Positions 12,195-41,526 of a stretch of DNA of 44,564 nucleotides are shown in pieces. Position numbers and translations under genes: made by a program. The stretch spans positions 25,261-69,824 of the forward strand of contig NZ_JAMXAY010000028.1 of assembly GCF_025460835.1 (NCBI RefSeq), written 5' to 3'. A model generated the notes under the pieces. It was not told the origin of the DNA and made no database searches. It saw only the letters and a program-made list of their open reading frames with translations. Each line of letters opens with the position of its first letter. Position 1 is the first letter of the stretch. The stretch comes from Parapedobacter soli (GTDB lineage Bacteria; Bacteroidota; Bacteroidia; Sphingobacteriales; Sphingobacteriaceae).

Positions 12195-12264
12195 GGCGTG
12201 AGGCATTAGACGCGAGATGTGAGACATTAGACATTAGACATTAGACATGAGATGCCAGACAAGT
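12195..12264 (+). repeat. heptamer tandem array A, upstream of dnaK
   Basis: About ten consecutive 7-base units in register, including GATGTGA, three consecutive GACATTA (12223-12243) and GACATGA; outer units are degenerate. It lies behind the dnaK promoter, between dnaK and the divergent YjbR-like gene. Its units belong to the same sequence family as the tracts in the beta-oxidation operon (TGAGATA, ATAGACA). Confidence 0.85.
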
Positions 12265-31019: not shown

Positions 31020-31451
31020 ATGAATGAAGACAATACAATAGATTATTACTTAAAGGCAGCGTGGCAGTCGGCAGCGAACAAATATAATCAGATCGCATCG
31101 CAGTTCGGGATTACCCAAGCCACGGGCTATGTACTCATCAATATCCATAAGGAAGGCACGCCCGTTTCTCAGATTGCCGGCCTACTGGGCGTGAAAGCCA
31201 CAAGTTTGTCGCGCATACTCAACAATTTGGAGAAATTGGAGTTGATTTATAGGGAAACGAATAGTGCCGACAAGCGTTCGGTGAAGGTTTTCCTAACGGC
31301 GCTGGGTAAGGAGAAGCGGGAGCAGGCCAAAGATGTGGTACGTAAATTCAACGCATACCTCGATCAGCACCTGTCTGACGAAGAGCGGATATCGGCCATC
31401 CGCACATTGAAGCGCATTAACGAGTTGGCCGTACAATATAAACCGGAGTGA
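31020..31451 (+). CDS. MarR family transcriptional regulator
   Basis: A 143-residue winged-helix regulator. TPVSQIAGLLGVKATSLSRILNNLEKLELIYR forms the recognition helix-turn-helix, and NSADKRSVKVFLTALGKE is the wing with the family DxRS motif. As first gene of the beta-oxidation operon it probably senses an acyl-CoA or fatty acid and represses its own operon. The stop codon TGA at 31449 is also the first three bases of heptamer unit 1 of array C, so gene and repeat tract are contiguous. Confidence 0.9.
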   Translation: MNEDNTIDYYLKAAWQSAANKYNQIASQFGITQATGYVLINIHKEGTPVSQIAGLLGVKATSLSRILNNLEKLELIYRETNSADKRSVKVFLTALGKEKREQAKDVVRKFNAYLDQHLSDEERISAIRTLKRINELAVQYKPE

Positions 31452-31658
31452 GATATGAGATATGAGATATGAGATATGAGATATGAGATATGAGATATGA
31501 GATATGAGATATGAGATATGAGATATGAGATATGAGATCTGAGATATGAGATATGAGATATGAGATGTGAGATATGAGATTTGAGATATGAGATGTGAGA
31601 TGTGAGACATCAGATTTGAGACTTGAGACATCAGATATGAGACATGAGACAATAGACA
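31449..31658 (+). repeat. heptamer array C: 30 tandem 7-base units between marR and fadB
   Basis: Thirty consecutive 7-base units in perfect register. Units 1-12 (31449-31532) are all TGAGATA; from unit 13 they diverge (TGAGATC, TGAGATG, TGAGATT), and toward the 3' end they become TGAGACA, TCAGATA and ATAGACA. The array begins with the marR stop codon and ends just before the conserved FadB coding sequence. The perfect 5' block suggests recent slippage expansion; the graded 3' end links the TGAGATA and ATAGACA families. Confidence 0.97.
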
Positions 31659-34081
31659 AAAGGCGAATCACAAAAGTGGCCGTGCTGGGCTCAGGGGTGA
31701 TGGGATCGCGCATAGCGTGCCACTTCGCCAACATCGGGGTCGAGGTATTGCTGCTCGATATCGCACCTAACGAGCTGACACCGCAGGAAACGGCCAAAGG
31801 CCTGGCCCTCGATAGCAAGGCCGTGCGCAACCGCATCGTAAATCAATCGTTGGATGCCGCTATCAAAAGTAACCCTTCGCCTGTGTTCAGCAAACATAGT
31901 GCGAAGTTGATTACAACCGGCAATTTCGACGATGACTTCCCCGCTATTGCGTCGGTCGATTGGGTAATCGAGGTGGTAGTGGAGCGGCTGGATATCAAGA
32001 AACAGGTGTTCGACAAGGTAGAGCAACACCGCAAAGCCGGTACGCTGGTTACCTCCAATACCTCCGGTATCCCCATCCACCTCATGGCAGCGGGGCGTAG
32101 CGATGACTTCAAGGCTCATTTCTGTGGTACACACTTCTTCAATCCGCCCCGTTACCTGCGGTTGCTCGAAATCATCCCCACACCCGCTACAAAGCCAGAA
32201 GTAGTCGATTTCCTGATGCATTATGGCGACAAATTCCTTGGCAAAACTGCAGTGCTCTGTAAAGATACCCCGGCATTTATCGGTAACCGTATCGGTGTGT
32301 ATTCCATGTTGGCAATCACCCACTTGGTAGAGCAGCTGGGTCTTACTGTCGAGGAGGTAGATAAGTTTACCGGTCCGGCCATGGGCCACCCCAAAAGCGC
32401 CACCTTCCGCACCGCCGATGTGGTGGGGCTCGATACGTTAGTGAATGTAGCCAACGGGCTGGCTGAAAACGCACCCGCTGATGAAGCCAAAGGCGTTTTC
32501 CAGTTGCCTGACTACATCCGGCAGATGGTCGATAAAAAATGGCTGGGCGAGAAGAGCGGACTAGGATTCTACAAGAAAATAAAAGATGATAAAGGGAATA
32601 GCGTTATCCTGTCGCTCGACTTGAAAACGCTGGAGTATCGCCAGCAGGAGAAGGTGAAGACGGCAACGTTGGATGCTACAAAAGGTGAAGACGATATCCG
32701 CAAGCGCATGAAGGTCTATGAGCAAGGCACCGACAAAGCCGGTGCATTCTTCCGGGCCATGCACTACCCACTATTTGAATACGTCTCCCGACGAGTACCC
32801 GAGATTACTGATGAGTTTTTCCGCATCGACGATGCCATGCGCGCCGGGTTCGGCTGGGAGCTTGGACCGTTTGAAGTGTGGGACGCGCTGGGCGTGAAAG
32901 AAACCCTAGCAAAGATAGAGTCAGAAGAAAAGCGCGTGCCTGGCCACAGCGGCGAGGTAGCCGGATGGGTACAGGACATGCTTGCGGCAGGCCACGACTC
33001 CTTCTACAAGGTGGAAAATGGCGTGCGGCATTATTACGATATCGGCAGCAAGTCGTATAAACCCATACCCGGTACCCAAGCTTTTATTATCCTGGATAAT
33101 ATCCGCGGACAAAAAACAGTCTGGAAGAACAGCGGATTGACCATCACCGATCTCGGTGATGGCATCCTCAACGCGGAGTTCCATACCAAGATGAATACGA
33201 TTGGGGGCGATGTGATCCAGGGGTTGCATAAGGCAATCGACTTAGCTGAGAAAGACTTTCGTGGGCTGGTGGTGGGTAACGACGGGGCCAACTTCTCTGC
33301 CGGGGCCAATATCGGGATGATCTTCATGATGGCCGTGGAGCAGGACTACGATGAACTGAATAGGGCCGTAAAAACCTTTCAGGACACGGCCATGCGACTA
33401 CGTTATTCTGCTGTCCCCGTTGTTGCAGCGCCTTTCAATCTTGCCCTGGGCGGTGGTTGCGAGTTTTCCATGCATGCCGACTTCGTGCAGCTCCATGCCG
33501 AAACGTACATGGGGCTTGTGGAATTCGGGGTGGGGGTGATTCCGGGCGGAGGTGGCTCCAAGGAGTTCGCCCTACGAGCGTCCGACGAATTCAAGGAGGG
33601 ACAGATTGTGCAACAAACGCTGCGCGATCGGTTCCTTACCATTGGGCAAGCTAAAGTGTCTACATCGGCGGTAGAGGCCTTCGAACTCGGCTACTTGGAA
33701 GCCGGCAAGTATGCCATCAGCATGAACCGCAGTCGGTTGTTGGCCGATGCCAAGGCGAAAGCCACTGAGCTCGCAGAGACGGGCTACACCCAACCGGTAC
33801 AGCGTACCGACATCAAAGTGCTGGGTAAGCAGGGGCTGGGTATCGTTTATGCCGGAGCCAACTCAATGCGCGCCGGCAACTACATCTCCGAGCACGACCA
33901 GAAGATTTCTGAAAAATTAGGCTGGGTGATGTGCGGTGGCGACCTGTCATCGCCCACCGAAGTGTCGGAGCAATATCTACTGGACTTAGAGCGCGAGGCA
34001 TTCCTGTCATTATGTGGCGAGCGTAAAACGCTGGAACGGATCCAGCACATGTTAACCAAGGGTAAAGCGTTGAGGAATTGA
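31637..34081 (+). CDS. fadB: 3-hydroxyacyl-CoA dehydrogenase / enoyl-CoA hydratase (FadB/FadJ-like)
   Basis: An 814-residue bifunctional beta-oxidation enzyme. The dehydrogenase comes first: KVAVLGSGVMGSRIA is the NAD-binding motif near residue 15, and CGTHFFNPPRYLRLLEI holds the catalytic His. The crotonase domain is C-terminal: NFSAGANIGM near residue 553 and GGGCEFSMHADFVQLHAET, PGGGGSKEFALR. This order is opposite to E. coli FadB. The only in-frame ATG, at 31637, lies at the junction of heptamer units 27 and 28, so the start codon and first residues (MRHETID) are repeat-derived; a GTG at 31595 is also within the array. Thiolase and acyl-CoA dehydrogenase follow. Confidence 0.9.
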   Translation: MRHETIDKRRITKVAVLGSGVMGSRIACHFANIGVEVLLLDIAPNELTPQETAKGLALDSKAVRNRIVNQSLDAAIKSNPSPVFSKHSAKLITTGNFDDDFPAIASVDWVIEVVVERLDIKKQVFDKVEQHRKAGTLVTSNTSGIPIHLMAAGRSDDFKAHFCGTHFFNPPRYLRLLEIIPTPATKPEVVDFLMHYGDKFLGKTAVLCKDTPAFIGNRIGVYSMLAITHLVEQLGLTVEEVDKFTGPAMGHPKSATFRTADVVGLDTLVNVANGLAENAPADEAKGVFQLPDYIRQMVDKKWLGEKSGLGFYKKIKDDKGNSVILSLDLKTLEYRQQEKVKTATLDATKGEDDIRKRMKVYEQGTDKAGAFFRAMHYPLFEYVSRRVPEITDEFFRIDDAMRAGFGWELGPFEVWDALGVKETLAKIESEEKRVPGHSGEVAGWVQDMLAAGHDSFYKVENGVRHYYDIGSKSYKPIPGTQAFIILDNIRGQKTVWKNSGLTITDLGDGILNAEFHTKMNTIGGDVIQGLHKAIDLAEKDFRGLVVGNDGANFSAGANIGMIFMMAVEQDYDELNRAVKTFQDTAMRLRYSAVPVVAAPFNLALGGGCEFSMHADFVQLHAETYMGLVEFGVGVIPGGGGSKEFALRASDEFKEGQIVQQTLRDRFLTIGQAKVSTSAVEAFELGYLEAGKYAISMNRSRLLADAKAKATELAETGYTQPVQRTDIKVLGKQGLGIVYAGANSMRAGNYISEHDQKISEKLGWVMCGGDLSSPTEVSEQYLLDLEREAFLSLCGERKTLERIQHMLTKGKALRN

Positions 34082-34144
34082 TTGGAGACAATAGACAATA
34101 GACAATAGACAATAGACAATAGACAACAGACAACAGACGATAGA
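34082..34144 (+). repeat. heptamer array D, left arm of four-helix-bundle cassette 1
   Basis: Nine units in register: TTGGAGA, five CAATAGA (34089-34123), two CAACAGA and CGATAGA. The array starts directly after the fadB stop codon and ends three bases before the ATG of the four-helix-bundle gene at 34148, so it forms the whole spacer and leader. Confidence 0.93.
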
Positions 34145-34147
34145 CGT

Positions 34148-34507
34148 ATGGCGGTTCATAATTTCAAGGAGCTAATTGTTTGGAAGAGGTCGGTTGATTT
34201 AGCGGCGGAGGTTTATCAAGCTGTTTCAGTATTCCCGCAAGATGAACGCTTCGGGCTTACGAGCCAAATTAAACGGGCAGCAGTATCCATTGCTTCTAAT
34301 ATAGCAGAGGGTTCTGGTAGAAACTCGGATAAGGAGTTTGTTCATTTCTTGGGAGTAGCTAAAGGATCAGCGTATGAGCTTTTAACTCAATTGTTTATTG
34401 CCGACAGGCTTGGCTTGTTACGCCCCGAGAGCACAGATGAGTTAATGAACAAAGTCGAGGAAGTGCAGAAAATGATTCACGGGTTTCAGGAAAAATTAAA
34501 AAAATAG
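34148..34507 (+). CDS. four-helix-bundle protein, 23S rRNA intervening-sequence protein family (copy 1)
   Basis: A 119-residue all-helical protein of the S23/IVP family (PF05635, TIGR02436 type). The conserved core is QIKRAAVSIASNIAEGSGR (residues 40-58), followed by KEFVHFLGVAKGSAYELLTQL. Family members are encoded in 23S rRNA intervening sequences of Leptospira and relatives and include Avd of diversity-generating retroelements; function is mostly unknown. The gene is lodged between fadB and the thiolase, flanked by array D on the left and the inverted array D' on the right. It is about 62% identical (hand alignment) to the copy at 35816. No link to fatty-acid oxidation is apparent. Confidence 0.9.
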   Translation: MAVHNFKELIVWKRSVDLAAEVYQAVSVFPQDERFGLTSQIKRAAVSIASNIAEGSGRNSDKEFVHFLGVAKGSAYELLTQLFIADRLGLLRPESTDELMNKVEEVQKMIHGFQEKLKK

Positions 34508-34531
34508 ATGACTTACCGGCGCTGAACAGGG

Positions 34532-34566
34532 AGGTCTATTGTCTGATGTCTAACGTCTGATCTCTA
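34532..34566 (+). repeat. heptamer array D', inverted right arm of cassette 1
   Basis: Five units: GGTCTAT, TGTCTGA, TGTCTAA, CGTCTGA, TCTCTAA. On the other strand these read as ATAGACA-type units, so they are inverted relative to array D; AGACAATAGAC (11 bases) is shared exactly. The thiolase ATG follows 12 bases later. Confidence 0.85.
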
Positions 34567-34577
34567 AAACAAAAAAT

Positions 34578-35753
34578 ATGGAAGCTTACATCATAGCAGG
34601 ATACAGAACAGCGGTTGGAAAGGCACCAAGAGGCGTGTTCCGTTTCACGCGGGCAGACGATCTCGCGGCGGATGTCATCAAACATTTGGTTGCGTCGGTG
34701 CCTAACTTGGATAAAGAGCAAATCGACGACGTAATCGTGGGCAACGCTACGCCGGAGGCGGAGCAAGGCCTCAACATCGGTCGCATGATTTCACTGATGG
34801 GGCTGGATACGGAGAAAGTGCCCGGCGTGACAGTGAACCGCTACTGCGCATCGGGGTTGGAGACCATCGCCACGGCGGTTGCTAAAATCAGGGCGGGTAT
34901 GGCTGATGCCATCATAGCCGGTGGCGTCGAGGTGATGTCGGGCATGCCATTCGGCGGGTGGAAGTTGGTGCCCAATCCCGATGTTGCCAAACGGCACCCC
35001 GATTGGTATTGGGGCATGGGGCTTACGGCCGAAGCAGTGGCCAAAGAGTATAAGGTGAGCCGCGAGGACCAGGATGAATTTGCGTTGAAGTCGCACCATA
35101 AGGCCGTTGCCGCCATTGCAAATGGCCATCTTAAAGATGGAGTAGTGCCAATTACGGTGAAAGAAAACTACCTTGAAGATGGCAGGCGGATTAAGACCCG
35201 CGAGTATGTGGTGGATACCGATGAGGGGCCGCGGGCAGACACGAGCCTGGAAGCATTGGCCAAGTTGAAGCCGGTATTTGCGGCGGGTGGAACCGTTACC
35301 GCTGGGAACTCATCGCAGACATCAGATGGCGCCGCCTTCGTACTTGTGGTATCCGAAAAGAAGATGAAAGAGCTGGGGGCAAAACCCATCGCGCGGCTGG
35401 TAAGTTACGGCGTAGCGGGCGTACCACCCCGTATCATGGGCATCGGCCCTATTGAAGCTATTCCAAAAGCACTTAAAATGGCAGGGATGAAACTCGAAGA
35501 TATGGAACTCATCGAGCTGAATGAGGCATTCGCTGCCCAATCGCTGGCGGTAGTCCGTGAGCTCGGTATCAACCAAGACATTTTAAACGTAAATGGGGGA
35601 GCAATCGCGTTAGGGCATCCACTGGGTTGCTCAGGCGCCAAGTTATCCGTGCAACTGTTCCATGAGTTGAAGCGCAGGAACAAGCGGTACGGTATGGTAA
35701 CGATGTGTGTAGGTACAGGGCAGGGAGCCGCGGGGGTGTTTGAGGTGATGTGA
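34578..35753 (+). CDS. fadA: acetyl-CoA C-acyltransferase (3-ketoacyl-CoA thiolase)
   Basis: A 391-residue thiolase for the last step of beta-oxidation. The nucleophile Cys is in [10 protein letters not shown] (about residue 90), NEAFAAQ carries the conserved Asn/Glu motif, [15 protein letters not shown] holds the catalytic His, and [10 protein letters not shown] the second Cys. Length is standard. It follows cassette 1 and precedes cassette 2; its stop TGA at 35751 is the first three bases of array E. It is co-directional with fadB and the acyl-CoA dehydrogenase. Confidence 0.94.
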
Positions 35754-35799
35754 GATATGAGATATGAGATTTGAGATATGAGATTTGAGATTTGAGAAT
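35751..35799 (+). repeat. heptamer array E, left arm of four-helix-bundle cassette 2
   Basis: Seven units in register: TGAGATA twice, TGAGATT, TGAGATA, TGAGATT twice, TGAGAAT. The first TGA is the thiolase stop codon. The sequence AGATTTGAGATTTGAGA at 35781-35797 is repeated perfectly inverted at 36231-36247. The four-helix-bundle ATG lies 16 bases after the array. Confidence 0.93.
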
Positions 35800-35815
35800 T
35801 AAACTAAAGTAGTAT

Positions 35816-36169
35816 ATGCACCATTTAAAGGAAATCCATGTGTGGCGTAAGGCTGTTGAGTTAGCAACATATATTTACAAAACGGTTGCTGATTTTCCGT
35901 CAGATGAGAGGTTTGGACTGACCAATCAGATTAAGCGCGCCGTGGTCTCTATCGCTTCTAATATTGCCGAAGGTGCAGGGCGCAATTCCGATAAGGAGTT
36001 CGTTCAGTTTCTCGGAATCGCAAACGGATCTTCTTATGAATTACAAACTCAGATTATTATAGCCCGTAATTTAGGCCTATTGGATGATAATAGCACGAAA
36101 TATATCGAAGAACAGTTGGATGAAATTCAAAAGATGATTTATGGATTTCAGAAAAAATTAAAAGTATAA
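35816..36169 (+). CDS. four-helix-bundle protein, 23S rRNA intervening-sequence protein family (copy 2)
   Basis: A 117-residue paralogue of the protein at 34148, with the same conserved block (IKRAVVSIASNIAEGAGRNS, residues 39-58) and the same C-terminal helix (QKMIYGFQKKLK). Conservation is highest in the central core and drops in the N-terminal helix and at residues 88-103, as expected for proteins under selection rather than decaying copies. It sits between the thiolase and acyl-CoA dehydrogenase genes, inside a 17-bp perfect inverted repeat made of heptamers. Its coding sequence is more AT-rich than the beta-oxidation genes around it, which suggests acquisition from elsewhere. Confidence 0.9.
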   Translation: MHHLKEIHVWRKAVELATYIYKTVADFPSDERFGLTNQIKRAVVSIASNIAEGAGRNSDKEFVQFLGIANGSSYELQTQIIIARNLGLLDDNSTKYIEEQLDEIQKMIYGFQKKLKV

Positions 36170-36181
36170 CATTCAAATCGA

Positions 36182-38014
36182 ATGAACATGGAAAAGGAAT
36201 TTAGTGACGAGACAGGTCTAAAATCTGACATCTCAAATCTCAAATCTATAAAGGGAGGCGAATTCGTTATCCGCGAAACGTCCTATAAAGAGGTGTTTAT
36301 TCCCGAGGAATTTGACGAAGAACAAGTCATGATCCGGCAGACGTGTGAGGATTTTCTAGAAGCGGAGGTCTTCCCCAACCTGGACCGCATCGATGCGCAG
36401 GAGGAGGGTTTGATGGAGAGCCTGCTCGACAAGGCGGGTGAGCTGGGTCTACTGGGGGTCTCCGTGCCGGAGGCTTATGGCGGATTCGGGAAGAACTTCA
36501 ACACCTCCATGCTGGTGGCCGACATCATCGGTGCTGGACACTCTTTCGCCGTGGCACTTTCGGCACACACCGGAATCGGCACGCTGCCCATCCTCTACTA
36601 TGGCAACGCTGCCCAGAAAGAAAAGTACGTGCCTAAGCTGGCTACGGGCGAGTGGAAAGCAGCGTATTGCCTTACAGAGCCCAATTCGGGGTCTGATGCC
36701 AACTCCGGGAGGACAAGCGCCAAGCTCAATGCGGAGGGAACCCATTACCTTCTTAACGGGCAAAAGATGTGGATTACCAACGGCGGTTTTGCCGATGTGT
36801 TCATTGTATTTGCAAAAATCGATGACGATAAGAACCTCTCCGCATTTATTGTGGAGCGTGCGTTCGGCGGTATCACCATGAACCCCGAAGAACACAAACT
36901 CGGCATCAAAGGGTCGTCTACCCGGCAGGTGTTTTTCAACGATTGCCCCGTGCCTGTGGAAAACCTGCTTTCCGAACGGGGAAACGGATTTAAAATTGCC
37001 GTCAACATTCTCAATGTAGGGCGCATCAAGCTGGGTGCTGCCACCATAGGCTCTTCCCGGCGTGTAATAGGACAGGCGGTAAACTATGCCAATGAGCGTG
37101 TGCAGTTCGGTTTGCCGATTTCCAAATTCGGTGCCATCCGCTATAAGCTCGCGGAGATGGCCGTACGTAATTACGCGGTGGAAAGTGCCGGATACCGTGC
37201 AGGCCAAAACATCGATGATGCATACGACGCATTGGTAGCTAGCGGCATGGATACTGCCAAAGCCAAACTGAAGTCGACCGAGCAGTTCGCCATCGAATGT
37301 GCCATATTGAAGGTTTGGGGTTCGGAGATGCTCGACTATGTGGTGGATGAAGGGGTGCAGATTTATGGTGGTATGGGCTACTCGGCCGATGCACCGATGG
37401 AACGCGCGTACCGCGATTCGCGTATCAATCGCATTTTCGAGGGCACCAACGAAGTCAATCGCCTGCTCATTGTGGATATGCTTTTGAAACGTGCACTCAA
37501 AGGCGAGCTGGACCTCATGGGGCCCGCGCAGGCAGTGGCCGGTGAGCTGATGGCTGTCCCCGATTTCGGGGAAGCAGACGGCACGCCGTTTGCATACGAA
37601 AAGAAACTGCTTGCCAACCTTAAAAAGGCGGGGTTGCTCGTAGCGGGTGCTGCCGTACAAAAACTGATGGCAACCCTGCAAAAGGAGCAGGAGATATTAA
37701 TGAACATTGCCGACATAATCGGCTACGTGTACCTTGCCGAATCCACCTTGCTCAGGGTCGAGAAATTGGTGGAGCAGCGGGGGGAAGAAGCCGTGCAGCG
37801 GCAGCTGGATATGGCACGTATTTATTTGCATACAACAATTGACCGGGTATATCTCGCCGGTAAGGAAGCGCTTCATTCCTTTGCCGAAGGCGACGAATTG
37901 AAAATGATGTTGGTAGGCATCCGGCGGTTTACCAAAGCTGAGCCCTATAACATCAAGGCGGCCCGCCAGCGGGTGGCACAAGCATTAATTGAAGCAAATG
38001 GCTGGTGTTTCTAA
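36182..38014 (+). CDS. acyl-CoA dehydrogenase
   Basis: A 610-residue FAD enzyme that forms the trans-2 double bond of acyl-CoA. The N-terminal helical domain (FDEEQVMIRQTCEDFLEAEV), middle strand domain (AYCLTEPNSGSDA, WITNGGFADVFIVFAK) and C-terminal helices (FEGTNEVNRLL holding the probable catalytic Glu region; QIYGGMGYS) are present, plus a 150-residue C-terminal extension usual in this subfamily. Residues about 12-24 (GLKSDISNLKSIK) are encoded by the inverted heptamer array E', so repeat DNA has become protein. The second in-frame ATG, at 36188, also lies upstream of the array. A terminator follows the stop. Confidence 0.93.
   Translation: MNMEKEFSDETGLKSDISNLKSIKGGEFVIRETSYKEVFIPEEFDEEQVMIRQTCEDFLEAEVFPNLDRIDAQEEGLMESLLDKAGELGLLGVSVPEAYGGFGKNFNTSMLVADIIGAGHSFAVALSAHTGIGTLPILYYGNAAQKEKYVPKLATGEWKAAYCLTEPNSGSDANSGRTSAKLNAEGTHYLLNGQKMWITNGGFADVFIVFAKIDDDKNLSAFIVERAFGGITMNPEEHKLGIKGSSTRQVFFNDCPVPVENLLSERGNGFKIAVNILNVGRIKLGAATIGSSRRVIGQAVNYANERVQFGLPISKFGAIRYKLAEMAVRNYAVESAGYRAGQNIDDAYDALVASGMDTAKAKLKSTEQFAIECAILKVWGSEMLDYVVDEGVQIYGGMGYSADAPMERAYRDSRINRIFEGTNEVNRLLIVDMLLKRALKGELDLMGPAQAVAGELMAVPDFGEADGTPFAYEKKLLANLKKAGLLVAGAAVQKLMATLQKEQEILMNIADIIGYVYLAESTLLRVEKLVEQRGEEAVQRQLDMARIYLHTTIDRVYLAGKEALHSFAEGDELKMMLVGIRRFTKAEPYNIKAARQRVAQALIEANGWCF
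36215..36249 (+). repeat. heptamer array E', inverted right arm of cassette 2, inside the acyl-CoA dehydrogenase gene
   Basis: Five units: GGTCTAA, AATCTGA, CATCTCA, AATCTCA, AATCTAT. Read on the other strand they are TGAGATT-type units, inverted to array E, with a 17-base perfect match. Like D', the array has five units, begins GGTCTA and is followed by an A-run. It lies in frame within codons 12-23 of the dehydrogenase. Confidence 0.88.
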
Positions 38015-41415: not shown

Positions 41416-41526
41416 ATGTCTGCACGCGTGCAAAAGCAAATTGCAACCGTGCAAAATGAAATTGCAACGGTGAAAAAGAGATTTGTGCGCTTGCAAAAGT
41501 GGATGGTATGGGTGCGAAAACGGTAG
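41416..41526 (+). CDS. 36-residue coiled-coil micro-ORF made of 21-base repeats
   Basis: An ATG-to-TAG frame of 36 codons. The DNA is a 21-base tandem repeat (about four units beginning GTGCAAAA, GTGCAAAA, GTGAAAAA, TTGCAAAA). It encodes heptads VQKQIAT, VQNEIAT, VKKRFVR, LQKWMVW with hydrophobic residues spaced 4 and 3 apart, as in a coiled coil. No homologue was recognised. It overlaps the decayed gene at 41483 in another frame and could be a remnant or a coincidental frame. Confidence 0.3.
   Translation: MSARVQKQIATVQNEIATVKKRFVRLQKWMVWVRKR

Follow-up and report, generated by a model that had tools for sequence, protein, structure and literature searches.

In REP/RAYT systems the gene of a Y1 transposase (RAYT) lies between inverted repeats, and many gene-less cognate repeats are found in the genome. 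Tandem repeats with a unit of seven bases have been described in other settings. The 23S rRNA intervening sequence (IVS) of Coxiella burnetii has a 28-bp stem, a substrate of RNase III in vitro, and carries tandem heptamers ahead of its open reading frame (PMC4990558). The GGGAATC repeats of Xanthomonas and the GGGGAYT repeats of Nostoc are heptameric intergenic repeats which have been read as G-quadruplexes or possible regulatory sites with their role left open; those of Xcc include 70 convergent inverted pairs among 186, lie close behind stop codons and have four units more often than any other number, while Nostoc has few inverted pairs (PMC4692102). The TAACTGA repeats of Beggiatoaceae, cyanobacteria and some Bacteroidetes are scattered intergenic 7-bp tandems (PMC4679880). 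Here we describe two cassettes in a 44,564-nucleotide stretch of the Parapedobacter soli genome (contig NZ_JAMXAY010000028.1, positions 25,261 to 69,824; 'the window' below), each with a gene for a four-helix-bundle protein (PF05635/TIGR02436), a heptamer array on the left at the upstream stop codon, and the same unit inverted on the right. The findings suggest a kind of mobile element that has yet to be described, and may account for some seven-base repeats that have long been a puzzle. The explanation we favour, and hold to be rather probable, is a small insertion element whose protein reads its own heptamer and works in trans on the matching arrays throughout the genome.

This layout, which the original prediction had read from the window, is confirmed in both cassettes and recurs in relatives:

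34086..34145, + strand: left array of cassette 1, AGACAAT type, 8.6 copies (Tandem Repeats Finder), nine in-step AGAY units, 4 bp past the fadB stop
34148..34507, + strand: four-helix-bundle gene 1 (P0002, 119 residues; PF05635 E 2.6e-39, TIGR02436 E 9.2e-39)
34533..34569, - strand: right array of cassette 1, AGAY inverted, GGTCTA start, five TCT units, four strict RTCT units
35747..35797, + strand: left array of cassette 2, AGATATG/AGATTTG type, 7.3 copies (Tandem Repeats Finder), six in-step AGAY units, overlapping the thiolase stop
35816..36169, + strand: four-helix-bundle gene 2 (P0003, 117 residues; PF05635 E 3.1e-38, TIGR02436 E 1.9e-38; model pLDDT 95, four helices)
36215..36249, - strand: right array of cassette 2, five in-step RTCT units, inside the acyl-CoA dehydrogenase frame

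Some details of the prediction need qualification. The left array was said to follow directly on the stop codon; in cassette 1 it starts 4 bp past that codon, and in cassette 2 the thiolase TGA (35751-35753) falls within the array. Both right arms do start with GGTCTA and have the five TCT units claimed, though the fifth is degenerate in cassette 1, leaving four strict RTCT units there and five in cassette 2. The units of the two cassettes differ as stated, mostly AGAC in the first and AGAT in the second, but are versions of one degenerate left-strand unit, AGAYNNN. The inverted-arm score was matched by 22 of 5000 placements of the same geometry for cassette 1 and by 6 of 5000 for cassette 2, drawn across the whole window and thus also taking in the arrays themselves; stronger evidence against chance comes from recurrence in other genomes.

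We scored arms as the best local match between the 200 bp upstream of a gene and the reverse complement of the 200 bp downstream, with a threshold of at least 14 and no built-in requirement for a period of seven. Inverted arms were found at 35/38 and 48/59 loci of the taxonomic family (83/97 together) and at 18/30 loci of the phylum, against 34/393 control genes from the taxonomic-family stretches (Fisher p ~1e-50 for the family sets). It should be noted that the loci of the family and phylum sets were chosen for the highest PF05635 scores and not at random, that they are not all independent, and that the set of 59 is a set of 60 minus one locus with a 92-residue frame (L116). Among named contigs, represented by the best 80 of 583 matches (including three, L223, L247 and L253, kept despite shortened frames), arms were present at 59/80 loci compared with 30/252 control genes. 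The armed loci in this set carry the labels Ignavibacteria, Opitutae, Betaproteobacteria, Desulfobacteraceae, Acidobacteria, Fibrobacter and Clostridia, nearly all from metagenome bins. Six of the 10 cyanobacterial plasmid loci taken from 26 matched plasmid records also score at least 14, with units such as GGGAGTA, GGGAACA and GGGTGTA. The comparison with control genes had been set beforehand as the test that could refute the prediction, which came through it with arms common around genes of the family and uncommon around the others. The proteins themselves are widespread, PF05635/TIGR02436 members being encoded in 308/399 genomes of the taxonomic family and 298/395 of the phylum, and no matches to P0003 were seen in 50,697 phage records.

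Two plasmid loci can be described individually. On a Pseudanabaena plasmid (L183:1286-1965) a four-helix-bundle gene with AAAAGCT-type arms lies between cas6 and cas4, and on a Nostoc edaphicum plasmid (L180:1390-1886) a GGGAGTA-armed gene is placed antisense between annotated genes for the beta and alpha subunits of ribonucleotide reductase.

The period of seven is evident on either side of the gene in each of the three sets: the excess self-similarity is 0.06-0.15 at lag 7, peaks again at 14, 21 and, for the family sets, 28, and is about 0.02 or less at the other lags from 2 to 29. Array length varies widely; left arms have four or five units in 53/86 cases and right arms most often five (31/70). 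Among 135 left arrays, 123 have a long upstream frame, and in 96 of these no more than 10 bp separate the frame's end from the first base of the array. The sense strand of the left arrays is enriched in stop codons (2.41 per 21 bases against 1.81 when shuffled), and as the arrays are stop-rich, part of this placement reflects frames that end inside the array. Left arrays are also poor in C, and all three sense frames are closed in 82/135. Both neighbours were available at 96 of the 101 armed loci and were co-oriented with the four-helix-bundle gene in 83 of them, against 107/173 background triples; for the upstream neighbour alone the figures are 91/96 and 126/173.

The heptamer word follows the protein clade. 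The arm match between copies has a median of 20-23 at protein distances below 0.3, 17 at 0.3-0.4, and 11 or 10 beyond, and a correlation between arm similarity and protein distance as strong as the real one did not arise in any of 500 Mantel permutations (101 loci). With clades delimited at 0.42, a limit set after seeing the lists, TAMGT units occur at 18/21 loci of the clade containing locus L015 and at 1/106 others, while AGAY units occur at 0/21 and 23/106, respectively. The original prediction held that the two arms of a copy co-evolve, and this was not borne out, as the fit between a copy's own left and right arms is no better than that with copies of the same clade (medians 16 and 16.5; 42 higher and 43 lower, p=0.57; 92 loci). 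The arms of one copy agree because the heptamer is common to the clade, and a word that is shared by both arms and fixed by clade, rather than fitted within the copy, is the trace expected of a word-reading protein.

These results bear on the possibility that the cassettes are RNA-processing elements like the 23S IVS, in which the arms pair in the mRNA as a stem, cutting by RNase III removes the insert from the transcript and makes it tolerable, and the protein is a passenger or helper. The same protein family and inverted repeats are found in both, the IVS of Coxiella combines a stem, a cut by RNase III and heptamers (PMC4990558), and gene-bearing copies lie in the sense orientation in operons. 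Yet mismatches which keep a G-U pair are outnumbered by those of the opposite type (171 against 238 over 160 pairs of arms, and 120 against 161 over 101), the fit of the arms within a copy shows no advantage, and long single-strand arrays with no partner are common in the P. soli genome. We consider this explanation unlikely. An RNA stem kept by compensatory change was tried as a candidate and is unsupported by the mismatch types and the within-copy arm fit. The IVS-like character suggested in the original prediction holds in that inverted repeats enclose a gene of the family, but the arms lack an RNA-pairing signature, and no 23S words were found in the flanks of 127 loci (nine words, with one mismatch allowed; a set that does not include the named contigs, 80 loci, or the plasmids, 10 loci).

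The agreement between word and protein extends to whole genomes. We counted windows of four AGAY units in 251 genomes of the taxonomic family and took the best P0003 match in each, calling a protein P0003-like at E<=1e-38 (the cut-off for the other protein, that of L015, was 4e-40, and both were set with the lists already in view; relaxing the P0003 cut-off to about 4e-36 left the result unchanged). The median number of AGAY windows is 53.5 in genomes with a P0003-like protein (n=52), 7 in those with a weaker match (n=143) and 0 in those with no match (n=56). When labels were shuffled within genera, the real rank sum was equalled in 0/5000 draws, and restricting the test to genomes that have some match gave the same outcome. 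The median number of TAMGT windows is 18 in the 34 genomes with an L015-like protein and 0 in the other 217, again with 0/5000 shuffles within genera, while the crosswise pairings were reached by 2283/5000 and 2086/5000. With genus as a fixed effect, AGAY windows are predicted by the P0003-like protein (t 7.2) and not by the L015-like protein (t -1.1), and TAMGT windows by the L015-like protein (t 10.8) and not by the P0003-like protein (t -0.4), these t values taking genomes as independent within genera. This association of array type with protein type makes it probable that the protein acts on the repeats, as originally suggested.

The arrays are far more numerous than the genes of the family. 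The P. soli genome has 285 AGAY windows against three PF05635 genes, two of them AGAY-armed and one TTAATGG-armed. Among 20 AGAY stretches (16 from P. soli, found among the first 100 windows listed, plus four from a second genome, G002, chosen as pairs), eight are inverted pairs, four per genome, all convergent with 0-37 bp between the arms, and the other 12 are same-strand arrays. The third PF05635 gene of P. soli (L003:25-786) has its TTAATGG-type arrays near a contig end with a run of Ns inside one of them, which suggests that such arrays may break assemblies. The window also contains two gene-less arrays, listed here with the genes around the cassettes (gene names were read from translations, and together the genes read as a fatty-acid oxidation operon):

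12208..12260, + strand: AGAY array with no four-helix-bundle gene, 4.4 copies over 12222-12252, eight in-step AGAY units
31449..31657, + strand: AGAY array with no four-helix-bundle gene, about 29 units, at the MarR-like stop; 28.7 copies over 31449-31649 and 30 AGAY units over 31451-31657
31020-31451: MarR-like gene
31595-34081: fadB
34578-35753: thiolase gene
36182-38014: acyl-CoA dehydrogenase gene

The array at 31449-31657 begins at the TGA stop of the MarR-like gene and the listed start of fadB (31595) is inside it, so that the N-terminus of FadB may be array-encoded, as is the case for the dehydrogenase (see below). A 21-bp tandem repeat at 41421-41499 (3.8 copies; TGCACGCGTGCAAAAGAAAAT) has no relation to the heptamers.

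The junctions which hold the two cassettes are short and empty in other members of the genus. Four-helix-bundle gene 1 lies in the fadB-thiolase gap, which is 499 bp here; of seven relatives, six have 5-7 bp there and one has 56 bp (an eighth genome, G006, was dropped as its thiolase match was in two pieces). Gene 2 lies between the thiolase and dehydrogenase genes, where the gap to the first dehydrogenase match is 431 bp here, 15-44 bp in six relatives and 113 bp in one (G005), the last containing a gene-less inverted repeat of another word (AAGGAGC type). The right array of cassette 2 supplants the usual N-terminus of the dehydrogenase and is translated: of the starts read in six relatives, five have MET, a few residues and IKGGEF, the sixth has MATETKNTIKGGEF, and the P. 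soli genome has MNMEKEFSDETGLKSDISNLKSIKGGEF. A third site is the gap between atpA and atpG (names from our reading of P0004 and its neighbour) in nine genomes of the genus. In three of them it is 2, 3 and 5 bp; another three, P. soli among them, have an AGAY hairpin there (86, 101 and 108 bp); and it is 33, 40 and 57 bp in the remaining three, where we read the sequence as remnants or other small elements. The three hairpins (among L289-L297) have the AGAY word in common and arm sequences that are otherwise different. Occupied and empty sites are thus found in relatives at two fad junctions and at atpA-atpG, and these gaps, together with the orientation of the neighbours, support the earlier view that gene and arms are inserted between operon genes as one unit.

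An alternative to activity in trans is that of descent only, in which the arms are inherited with the gene, gene-less arrays are dead remains, and the protein is now inactive on arrays. Arrays do exist in the absence of a cognate gene, and the sequences of 33-57 bp at atpA-atpG could be such remains. However, in 212 pairs at protein distances of 0.1-0.33 fourfold sites are 38.3% identical compared with 29.6% expected, a value near enough to expectation to indicate that neutral sequence is nearly saturated, and in 189 pairs over the same range the arms have a median score of 20 when the outer flanks have 9. The number of arrays also tracks the specific protein type within genera, and we find it improbable that descent is the whole explanation. 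A role as host regulatory sites, with the protein as a regulator, the arrays as its operators or mRNA sites and no mobile element, would suit the arrays adjoining atpA-atpG and the fad operon, as well as the suggestion that such repeats are possible regulatory or G-quadruplex sites. Nevertheless, occupancy of the junctions changes between species, the four-helix-bundle gene is itself found between arms, and genes associated with the Xanthomonas and Nostoc repeats were reported to fall into all functional classes with no role in regulation found (PMC4692102), which makes this very unlikely in our view. An origin as plain simple-sequence repeats, produced by slippage of the polymerase and at times able to form G-quadruplexes, would agree with the wide length variation and with how heptameric repeats have been described (PMC4692102), but we set this aside as the whole story and give it hardly any credence because the excess is confined to seven and its multiples and array type depends on the four-helix-bundle protein encoded, and the AGAY and TAMGT words have no built-in G-run.

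Both proteins belong to the family, with PF05635 scores of 135.8 and 132.4 bits (cut-off 33.8) and TIGR02436 scores of 132 and 131 bits (cut-off 24). The predicted model of P0003 (pLDDT 95.3, four helices) matches the chains of 2gsc with TM-scores of 0.88-0.93, and those of the Avd structures 4dwl and 8ub with 0.77-0.80 at 7-9% identity. Against the NCBIfam Avd model P0003 has an E value of 6.4e-9, and the scores of 23.5 and 36.1 bits fall below the 80-bit equivalog cut-off. The solved members of the family are titled hypothetical or of unknown function; 2gsc and 2rld have five chains each, and XCC0516, a solved relative from Xcc, is described as a ring-like homopentamer (PMC4990558). A five-membered ring of this kind may read about five units, and the idea of one heptamer unit per subunit is only suggestive. 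Avd acts with RNA and a reverse transcriptase (PMC10053308), and an RNA route is therefore possible for the four-helix-bundle elements. No enzyme domain was found in the protein, and it would then need a partner from the cell for movement, perhaps a reverse transcriptase as for Avd.

We return to the small insertion element acting in trans, which in our reading of the sequences combines heptamer recognition with a mobile element that has gene-less derivatives. Such an element would consist of one four-helix-bundle gene between two inward-pointing heptamer arrays. The protein would recognise the heptamer, which we infer to involve physical binding, and its action in trans would reach every array of that word in the genome. 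Genomes encoding the cognate protein would in this way retain and multiply arms, hairpins with no gene and single arrays alike. Copies that carry the gene are found mostly right after a stop codon in the sense direction, where co-transcription is possible, and movement of the element would need the partner supplied by the cell.

A number of observations weigh against this reading. Matches in direct orientation occur at 19/97 family loci (7/38 and 12/59) and 16/80 named loci (the phylum set has 3/30), arms at the score used are absent from 14/97 and 21/80, respectively, some arms which pass (L254, L257) are not clearly heptameric, and left arms with four units (30/86) are slightly commoner than those with five (23/86). 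In the comparison of genomes, any P0003 match at all also predicts both AGAY (t 6.3) and TAMGT windows (t 2.5), and one genus (g4) shows the opposite trend, with a median of 8 AGAY windows with the protein and 22 without. There are 45 AGAY windows in a genome with no PF05635 match (G004) and 68 in one with no P0003 match (G206), seven genomes have at least 10 TAMGT windows but no L015-like protein at the cut-off, and 5/34 genomes with an L015-like protein have zero TAMGT windows. The reversed control pattern matches too (1545 against 6767 AGAY windows), though it can match the same arrays and is a weak control. It should also be noted that an association of arrays with proteins is not binding, and that no target duplication was seen, the divergence of the relatives (87-92% protein identity for the thiolase) being too great for the exact junctions to be placed.

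A bolder version, which we offer tentatively and think may well be wrong, is that one superfamily across many phyla is a main source of scattered heptamer repeats, including the cyanobacterial and Xanthomonas repeats and, less surely, TAACTGA. The five-membered ring of each protein clade would read about five of its own units and spread arms and gene-less hairpins in trans into the stop-codon gaps of transcribed operons, perhaps via RNA. Our findings give the PF05635/TIGR02436 proteins a testable role, offer an explanation for intergenic heptamer repeats whose describers left their role open (PMC4692102), and predict a readable protein-to-heptamer code and a mobile element with no recognised enzyme. 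They also raise the question of whether four-helix-bundle genes in cas loci, of which 18 have been reported (PMC3936711), may be insertions; the armed gene between cas6 and cas4 on the Pseudanabaena plasmid is one such case.

The protein family, the IVS that carries it and heptameric repeats in several phyla are known parts. In the open-licence literature we found no paper joining protein clade, heptamer word and gene-less arrays, and only the report on the Coxiella IVS was found to place heptamers beside a gene of this family (PMC4990558), with others naming four-helix-bundle genes and not heptamers in the parts available (PMC8700078, PMC5524665, PMC10910872). The heptamers of Xanthomonas are similar in forming convergent inverted pairs behind stop codons, but in the available text the Xanthomonas and Nostoc repeats are tied to no protein and XCC0516 goes unmentioned (PMC4692102). 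The TAACTGA repeats differ in that most are direct sets ahead of start codons, only one inverted set being present in the Beggiatoa genome, and are given no link to the four-helix-bundle family in the part of the report available (PMC4679880). Avd of the diversity-generating retroelements has the same fold, but our proteins fall below its cut-off, and the genes next to them read as fatty-acid oxidation genes. The cassettes resemble the 23S IVS with its S23p reading frame in that terminal inverted repeats enclose a gene for a protein of this family, but are not IVS, as they lie between protein genes, have a word that varies with protein clade, and are accompanied by many gene-less arrays elsewhere. 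They are like REP/RAYT in the gene between inverted repeats and the gene-less cognate repeats across the genome, but unlike them have a four-helix bundle as the only gene between the arms, with no Y1 transposase, and repeats that are tandem heptamers. As membership of the IVS fails on location and that of the RAYT systems on the protein, we regard the system as new in kind, although a reader who takes IVS as an umbrella term may file it as an IVS variant.

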